DNA of 64,000 nt, from the NCBI RefSeq assembly GCF_000159095.1, contig NZ_GG666296.1, positions 248,819 through 312,818 of the forward strand, written 5' to 3'. The stretch is from Anaerococcus tetradius ATCC 35098 (lineage in GTDB: Bacteria; Bacillota; Clostridia; Tissierellales; Peptoniphilaceae). This document shows, one piece after another, positions 13,998-62,816 of this stretch. Below the pieces are notes generated by a model. It saw only the letters and a program-made list of their open reading frames with translations. It ran no database searches and had not been told where the DNA came from. Numbering within the stretch: position 1 is the stretch's first letter; each line of letters opens with the position of its first letter. Position numbers and translations under genes: made by a program.

Positions 13998-14253
13998 GAC
14001 AACAAGTTGTGACGTGGAAAAGTAGAATAACTTATCTTTCAGAGAGGTATTGTTTGGTGAAAAATACTAGATAAGTTATATCGAACAATCACCACTGAGC
14101 TACAAGGCCCAACAGAGTAAGCCTTGCCGGGAACTCCCGTTACAGAGTTATTCATTATGAATTGAGTGCATCAATAGATGAAAAGGAGTGGTACCGCGGG
14201 GATTATTCTATCTCTCGTCTCTTTGCTAAGGGCAAGGAGGCGGGAGTTTTTTT
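13998..14253 (+). promoter_or_regulatory. T-box riboswitch of ilvE, isoleucine specifier
   Basis: Stem I is clear. ATAACTTATC (14027-14036) pairs with GATAAGTTAT (14070-14079), with AGAGAGG and TTTGGTGAAA in between. ATC (14080-14082) lies right after the helix in the specifier position. The T-box core TGGTACCGC is at 14189-14197. A GC-rich terminator (CTCTCGTCTCTTTGC with GCAAGGAGGCGGGAG) ends in seven T at 14247-14253. The specifier predicts tRNA-Ile as ligand, which matches the branched-chain aminotransferase downstream. Confidence 0.93.
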
Positions 14254-62293: not shown

Positions 62294-62336
62294 AAATACA
62301 AAAAAACAGAGAGAAAAGCTTGCTAAATACTATAAG

Positions 62337-62395
62337 TAGGGGAGAAAGGATTCTAGACTTCGAGCCTCACCTTCTCAAAGCCAAGAGCTGCCAAC
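62337..62395 (-). repeat. tRNA-like repeat A (5'-truncated, tRNA-Pro related)
   Basis: On the minus strand it starts GTTGGCAGCTC and passes a degenerate anticodon-arm region. It then has a T-arm-like GGCTCGAAG and ends CCTTTCTCCCC, but there is no matching 5' acceptor strand, D-stem or functional CCA. A 30-base core is identical to repeat B. Confidence 0.7.
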
Positions 62396-62433
62396 ATTAC
62401 TAGAATTATCACTTATAAATTAAAATATAGTAC

Positions 62434-62463
62434 AAAAAAACTAGGCTCTAATCAAACCTAGTT
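62434..62463 (-). terminator. Terminator after tRNA-like repeat B
   Basis: On the minus strand AACTAGG pairs with CCTAGTT and is followed by seven T. Confidence 0.85.
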
Positions 62464-62468
62464 ATATA

Positions 62469-62530
62469 TGGTCGGGGAGAAAGGAAACGAAGCTTCGAGC
62501 CTCACCTTCTCAAAGCCAAGAGTTACCAAC
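62469..62530 (-). repeat. tRNA-like repeat B (5'-truncated, with CCA end)
   Basis: On the minus strand the sequence runs from GTTGGTAACTC through an imperfect anticodon arm to GCTCGAAGCTTCG, ending CTCCCCGACCA. The 3' acceptor strand and encoded CCA match tRNA-Pro, but the 5' acceptor strand is replaced by unrelated AT-rich sequence. It is not a functional tRNA by eye. Confidence 0.7.
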
Positions 62531-62571
62531 ATTATTAGAATTGATGTTATTAATGTATAAATAATAGGTAC

Positions 62572-62598
62572 AAAAAAAACCAGCAACAAATGCTGGTT
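62572..62598 (-). terminator. Terminator after tRNA-Pro
   Basis: On the minus strand AACCAGCA pairs with TGCTGGTT around a 5-nt loop and is followed by about eight T. Confidence 0.9.
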
Positions 62599-62603
62599 AA
62601 TAG

Positions 62604-62680
62604 TGGTCGGGGTGAAAGGATTCGAACCTTCGACCTCATGTTCCCAAAACACGCGCGCTACCAAGCTGCGCCACACCCCG
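62604..62680 (-). tRNA. tRNA-Pro (UGG anticodon), CCA encoded
   Basis: On the minus strand a full 77-nt cloverleaf is present. The acceptor CGGGGTG pairs with CACCCCG, and the D-arm includes GCGCAGCTTGGTAGCGC. The anticodon arm is CGTGT-TTTGGGA-ACATG with anticodon TGG, and the T-arm is GGTTCGAATCC. The discriminator A and CCA are encoded. UGG reads proline codons. It is the intact head of a row of truncated copies, each followed by its own terminator. Confidence 0.95.
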
Positions 62681-62816
62681 TCATCAACTGACTATTACAT
62701 TATACGACAGTTAAAATTACTTGTCAAATCTTTTTTAAAAATTTCTTTAGATTTTTATTAATTTCTTACTTTCCTATAGGATAATCTGTTATAATGATAC
62801 CATAAGGAGATTAAAA

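Follow-up and report, generated by a model that had tools for sequence, protein, structure and literature searches.

Comparison of sequences established that the two modules behind the tRNA-Pro gene in the window (the whole 64,000-nt stretch of Anaerococcus tetradius DNA that was analysed) are tandem partial tRNA-Pro copies of common origin, and that a linear 21-nt core within them is conserved beyond the neutral expectation. The best explanation is an array like the tRNA-linked repeats (TLRs) of E. coli; any expression of the array would come from read-through that starts at the tRNA-Pro promoter, and the core would act by its sequence. This reading is held tentatively, at a little under an even chance. 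A second lineage with the TLR layout, a deep origin in the genus and a measurable conservation of the 21-nt core provides a natural comparison and a testable question, and would show how a tRNA duplicate may be retained for a purpose outside translation.

All the features of the locus lie on the minus strand in the order promoter, tRNA-Pro(UGG), terminator, module B, terminator, module A. The sigma-70-type promoter TTGACA-17-TATAAT (62699..62727) agrees with the consensus at 12 of 12 positions. It is followed by the intact tRNA-Pro(UGG) with an encoded CCA (62604..62680; ARAGORN and Rfam) and by the intrinsic terminator of this gene (62570..62598; stem 62598-62578 plus a T run). Module B (62469..62529; model match of 66.2 bits) is a 5'-truncated tRNA-Pro-like repeat and carries the conserved 21-nt core GGCTTTGAGAAGGTGAGGCTC at 62497..62517. 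Module A (62336..62394; 60.3 bits) is the same repeat with an intact core (62362..62382) and a decayed 3' end without CCA. The part of tRNA-Pro that both modules represent starts in the D-loop (TTGGTA) and extends to the 3' end, which in module B reaches the CCA. The initial annotation had described an intact tRNA-Pro followed by two 5'-truncated tRNA-like modules on the minus strand, with which the tRNA calls, the alignments and the model matches agree. The 30-base core that it had reported as identical in modules A and B (CTCTTGGCTTTGAGAAGGTGAGGCTCGAAG) was recovered as such. The serial duplication that it had considered was borne out as well: the modules agree at 88% over 72 aligned nt with a spacing of 135 bp, the 3' end of tRNA-Pro lies one more 135-bp step away, and the module tail aligns with the tRNA.

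The same annotation had assigned each module its own terminator. This held for module B (62432..62463; stem 62463-62439) but not for module A, directly 3' of which the hairpin search found no terminator hairpin. The nearest hairpin past module A on the same strand, 62288-62268, is located about 50 nt further on, beside the end of the next gene, which is convergent to the array and starts with a weak zinc-ribbon match under the Pfam cut-off. Apart from modules A and B, nothing in the genome matched the 21-nt core with three mismatches or fewer. Chance is ruled out, since the genome has no other core match and congeners carry the element at the corresponding locus. Elsewhere in the window, two T-box leaders exceeded the Rfam gathering score, at 14000-14225 on the plus strand and at 2383-2614 on the minus strand.

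To determine the distribution of the element, a collection of one genome per species (84,980 species) was scanned with a degenerate form of the 21-nt core, resulting in ten stretches, eight in Anaerococcus records and two elsewhere without a tRNA tail. The exact core matches outside Anaerococcus (L034 and L040) were set aside as chance, being followed by no tRNA tail and looking like coding sequence by eye. A sequence-only model made from 37 modules, with a cut-off of E <= 1e-11, detected 41 modules in 16 of the 31 Anaerococcus genomes, with 1 to 5 scored units per locus. The model gave none in the 99 other genomes of the family and none in the 218 other genomes of the order; the searches of the family and the order used stricter filters with few candidates scored per genome, and weak copies could be missed. 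The 41 modules scored 47-75 bits, in comparison with 33-43 for intact tRNA-Pro genes and 21-41 for some incomplete copies. Conservation in relatives, which the initial annotation had named beforehand as a test, is present at species level. The other 15 of the 31 species have no scored module, which indicates that the element is dispensable; two of the 15 keep remnants, a truncated core in G011 (GGCTTTGAGAAATTT, L023) and a tail remnant in G010 (L019).

Each of the 41 scored modules is located behind a tRNA-Pro gene, within about 2 kb, with the exception of G017, where integrated elements lie between. The upstream gene is tRNA-Pro(UGG), or tRNA-Pro(CGG) in G027 and G020; the tRNA-Pro(CGG) of G020 is itself truncated, and G029 has a partial module copy behind its tRNA-Pro(CGG). 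The modules at L041:871-1009 and L042:875-935 lie beside tRNA-Pro(CGG) and, like that tRNA, have the T-loop variant TTCAAAT; at L042 the tRNA is truncated and its module is intact. Module numbers vary from 0 to 5, and 3' ends decay, as in module A and in the last copies of L002 and L044. Short palindrome-rich inserts that break modules were seen by eye in the first module of L011 and in the last modules of L002 and L044, and another was noticed in L019 downstream of tRNA-Pro; the inserts of L011 and L019, two different species, look alike and interrupt the acceptor strand at almost identical positions. The search of viral contigs with the exact core pattern, and of plasmids and phages, gave no match to the core, and a mobile element carrying the core was rejected on this ground. 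No publications on such repeats in Anaerococcus were found in the open-access literature searched.

TLRs of E. coli have been described since 1978. According to the sections of a 2021 paper that deal with them, they comprise 22 units at ten loci with one to five units per locus, each unit has as its last 18-19 bp an exact copy of the 3' end of the tRNA or rRNA that precedes it, and they were without known function before the three rRNA-linked cases of that paper, rrA, rrB and rrF, which are TLR-type sRNAs that arise by read-through and lie between a pair of terminators (PMC8144298). In the tyrTV locus of E. coli NC_000913, the last 19 nt of tRNA-Tyr, AATCCTTCCCCCACCACCA, were found three times behind tyrV (rttR) with a spacing of 178 bp, and once more between the two tRNA genes. 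The Anaerococcus modules likewise follow a tRNA gene closely in tandem, each finishing with a copy of the 3' end of the tRNA and with one to five units at a locus, and their well-kept right block AATCCTTTCACCCCGACCA is the same tRNA stretch as the E. coli tail. In contrast to the E. coli repeats, the Anaerococcus unit has retained a larger part of the tRNA (D-loop to CCA), and its tail is often mutated; its conserved part is a linear 21-mer, most of the units have their own terminator, and the host is no enterobacterium. With the tRNA-Pro(UGG) of the window as the reference, or the CGG tRNA for three modules, the 3' stretch identical to the tRNA was at least 18 nt (19-30) in 17 of the 37 aligned modules, the remainder being mutated. 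The tail of module B has an identical 3' stretch of 9 nt, with 16 of 19 positions matching, and that of module A has 0. The best ungapped match to the 21-mer in tyrTV, the one locus compared, has 8 of 21 mismatches. Because the core has no closer match in the tyrTV stretch and the modules have no Rfam family, they are, on sequence grounds, TLR-like and are not filed as E. coli TLRs.

Two further known systems were compared. As far as the parts of the source on this element go, tRNA-Other of Bacillus cereus is a pseudo-tRNA which is poorly aminoacylated in vitro, lies beside a genomic island and was suggested to belong to a larger regulatory RNA (PMC3399842). The modules share with it, as there portrayed, a tRNA-derived origin, the lack of a translation role and the vicinity of a genomic island, but they are truncated, tandem and unrecognised as tRNAs. 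The E. coli 3'ETS-leuZ is presented as a sponge RNA, a spacer cut from a tRNA transcript which acts by base pairing; unlike the modules, it is no tRNA copy, and the passages on it do not describe a repeat array (PMC8144298).

The conservation of the core was evaluated across the midpoint root of an rpoB tree (one gene, 30 of the 31 species as G026 gave no locus, branch supports not weighed), with module-bearing species on both sides. The mean identity of the core (columns 16-36) across this root was 0.925 in 280 pairs of the 37 aligned modules, the pairs being not independent and the three CGG-type modules being left out. The corresponding values were 0.882 for the tail (columns 48-66), 0.673 for the left part of the T-arm (columns 37-47) and 0.462 for the D-side (columns 1-15). 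The spacer of 30 nt upstream of the modules had an identity of 0.340 compared with 0.354 when shuffled, and the fourfold sites of rpoB had 0.540 across the same root. The alignment of 37 modules omits incomplete copies and four of the 41 model matches (one each from G019, G002, G015 and G020), two of which have a core with two changes; once the four were added, the core identity was 0.923 over 345 pairs.

As the modules had first been gathered by their core, a test based on the tail only was conducted. It resulted in 32 tail matches at most 1.4 kb downstream of tRNA-Pro, 28 of which carry the core with 0-3 mismatches in 21; the test comprised non-overlapping matches in 30 of the 31 species (not G023), misses a few aligned copies and does not reach the G017 array. 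The other four matches had 11-14 core mismatches, three of them, at 1.0-1.35 kb, being chance-like and one being the G010 remnant. With an identity of 92.5% against 54% at fourfold sites and a spacer at chance, and with the core present in copies picked by the tail, the core looks selected, that is, under purifying selection or shaped by a mimicking cause not thought of. The selection suggested by the initial annotation thus appears to hold for the core. Recent transfer of modules between the two clades is unlikely, as the spacer adjoining the core is at chance.

For the TLR-like array expressed by read-through, the following course is proposed. The tandem duplication of part of tRNA-Pro, which took in the D-loop through to the CCA together with the terminator, would date from early in the history of Anaerococcus and would have been followed by re-amplification, presumably repeated, and by homogenisation within genomes. 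A few polymerases would pass the first terminator and give short RNAs ending at each module terminator, and the output of module RNA would follow tRNA-Pro transcription. Read-through is assumed because the tRNA-Pro promoter is the only recognisable one. In favour of the array are the terminators that follow most of the aligned copies and the E. coli precedent of rrA, rrB and rrF. Sites resembling an own promoter upstream of the modules were no commoner than chance (3 of 37 modules compared with 93 of 740 shuffles). The TTGAGA-17-TAGAAT match inside module A was rejected as a promoter, since TCGAAT or CCGAAT stands at that place in most of the aligned modules and upstream sites are no commoner than in shuffles. 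A second terminator directly before the modules, seen by eye in G019, G015 and G002, makes read-through less likely. Copies and tRNA within one genome are often near-identical in the terminator by eye, which suggests exchange between the units. The core would act through base pairing or through a protein that binds it as sequence, given that it is conserved linearly and has no visible fold. The tRNA tail (AATCCTTTC...GACCA) may serve as a processing or end signal.

The initial annotation had also proposed a small structured RNA and had recommended covariation across relatives as a check; neither the covariation nor the folding favoured such an RNA. Covariation was counted on 37 modules (36 distinct) against shuffles in four helices, namely CTTTGAG/CTCRAAG, the T-stem, GGTGA/TCACC and the alternative GCTTT/GAGGC, and was not clearly above the shuffles in any of them. 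The CTTTGAG/CTCRAAG hairpin was 92.9% paired compared with at most 74.0% when slid, which proves nothing, since its 5' side hardly varies; no pair was changed on both sides and the covariation score equalled that of shuffles. The T-stem came nearest to a signal, with one double change (equalled by 173 of 500 shuffles) and a score reached by 110 of 500 shuffles, and its innermost pair is broken in 14 of the 36 sequences. GGTGA/TCACC and GCTTT/GAGGC had no double changes. Ten Pro modules folded no better than their dinucleotide shuffles, with z values from -1.03 to +1.30 (module B was folded without its last A).

The linear conservation is explained equally well by a role at the DNA level, and the main rival, considered unlikely on the whole, is a DNA site. 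According to it, the tail is an attachment site of a tyrosine integrase, the modules act as spare attB sites or as decoys, or else are tiny non-autonomous units that have multiplied at the 3' end of the tRNA, and the core is a DNA site bound by a protein. The absence of a visible structure suits this explanation, as do the integrative elements found at the tail. In G017, the 16-bp tail CCTTTCACCCCGACCA occurs in four copies, exactly 62,841 bp apart three times (C1:140687-329225; L045, L046), with a phage-type (tyrosine) integrase gene just before the last tail copy. The modules of this genome lie 189 kb from tRNA-Pro because of the integrated elements between them; these possibly reflect three elements inserted into tRNA-Pro in tandem, or else a repeat in the assembly. 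In G028, and there only, there is an element end, a homologue of the one in G017, that begins right after the module tail CCTTTCACCTCGACCA, the local score of the two ends being 131 compared with the maximum of 38 in 300 mononucleotide shuffles. This homologous end makes it probable that a module tail was used for attachment on at least one occasion. However, the attachment-site role concerns the tail, which the tRNA also has, and not the conserved core, to which the integrase footprint has no tie. Moreover, conservation of a site that serves its parasites is not to be expected of a host, the core is without match in viral contigs, plasmids and phages, and the 41 scored modules stand behind tRNA-Pro genes.

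A tRNA mimic or decoy for T-box leaders or processing enzymes, as offered by the initial annotation, gained no positive evidence. In this explanation, which is regarded as improbable, the module RNA would titrate T-box leaders, enzymes of tRNA processing or a nuclease that targets tRNA. By eye, the core can be aligned with the anticodon region of tRNA-Pro (TTTTGGGAACATGAGG compared with CTTTGAGAAGGTGAGG), and the matching position of the anticodon loop is C in the three aligned modules beside tRNA-Pro(CGG) and T beside tRNA-Pro(UGG); nearly all aligned copies have retained the GACCA end, each of its positions being conserved in 35 to 37 of the 37. Against these likenesses, no anticodon stem can be recognised by eye, for which reason a codon reading with UGA or CGA at the would-be anticodon was dropped. 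The 5' acceptor strand is missing, as the initial annotation had stated: an acceptor-like 5-mer within 60 nt upstream was found in one of 37 modules, where it comes from the neighbouring truncated tRNA. The innermost pair of the T-stem is open in the 14 of 36 sequences mentioned above, and module A has kept the core and lost the CCA. Neither module A nor module B was called a tRNA by ARAGORN or Rfam, which is in line with the earlier view that they are not working tRNAs, and the Rfam scan matched only the tRNA, with one sub-threshold match on the tRNA terminator. The module CCA continues in the DNA into the terminator, which speaks against a T-box decoy.

Similarly low probability is given to a fail-safe terminator array, in which selection favours several terminators downstream of a very strong promoter that points at a convergent gene, the tRNA pieces being passengers. 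A terminator was determined after 25 of the 37 aligned modules compared with 30 of 740 shuffles, which is well over chance; some species have two terminators per unit by eye, and the next gene in the window is indeed convergent. Such an array leaves unexplained why the 21-nt core is kept while its flanks change freely, and why it is kept in the terminator-less module A. A neutral, decayed tandem duplication of tRNA-Pro is the least probable explanation and a very doubtful one, since, for all the decaying 3' ends, the numbers from 0 to 5 and the within-genome homogenisation seen by eye, a neutral 21-mer is not expected to be 92.5% identical when fourfold sites reach 54% and the spacer no more than chance, and copies picked regardless of the core still carry it.

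In the same genome (G000), the best 30 of 46 tRNA matches were taken with their flanks. A non-tRNA copy of the tail was detected downstream of 3 of the 31 distinct tRNA genes, those for Pro, Glu(UUC) and one Asp(GUC). The units behind tRNA-Glu(UUC) and tRNA-Asp(GUC) are located at L146:1011-1178 and L147:1595-1713 (contigs C95 and C100). They have in common a hairpin, TCTTYGGACTCACT..CGTTCGTCTCRAAGA, which is unlike the Pro core, and a short hairpin resembling an anticodon stem. It is possible, though rather doubtful, that tRNA 3' halves have repeatedly become small non-translational RNA genes in the tRNA operons of Anaerococcus, unstructured and sequence-conserved in the case of Pro and strongly folded in the case of Asp and Glu; these would form a Gram-positive counterpart of the TLRs, acting in trans and with an output tied to tRNA transcription. 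The four Asp/Glu-type units that were folded were far better than shuffles (z -2.49 to -4.41), in contrast to the Pro modules, and thus there are at least two kinds of TLR-like units in Anaerococcus. The Asp unit gave 21 BLAST matches in 15 of the 31 Anaerococcus genomes at E <= 1e-5. The hairpin pattern in the loci of these matches resulted in ten distinct copies, nine of them behind tRNA-Asp or tRNA-Glu, and the strict hairpin pattern was found in 6 of the 130 genomes of the family, all six being Anaerococcus.
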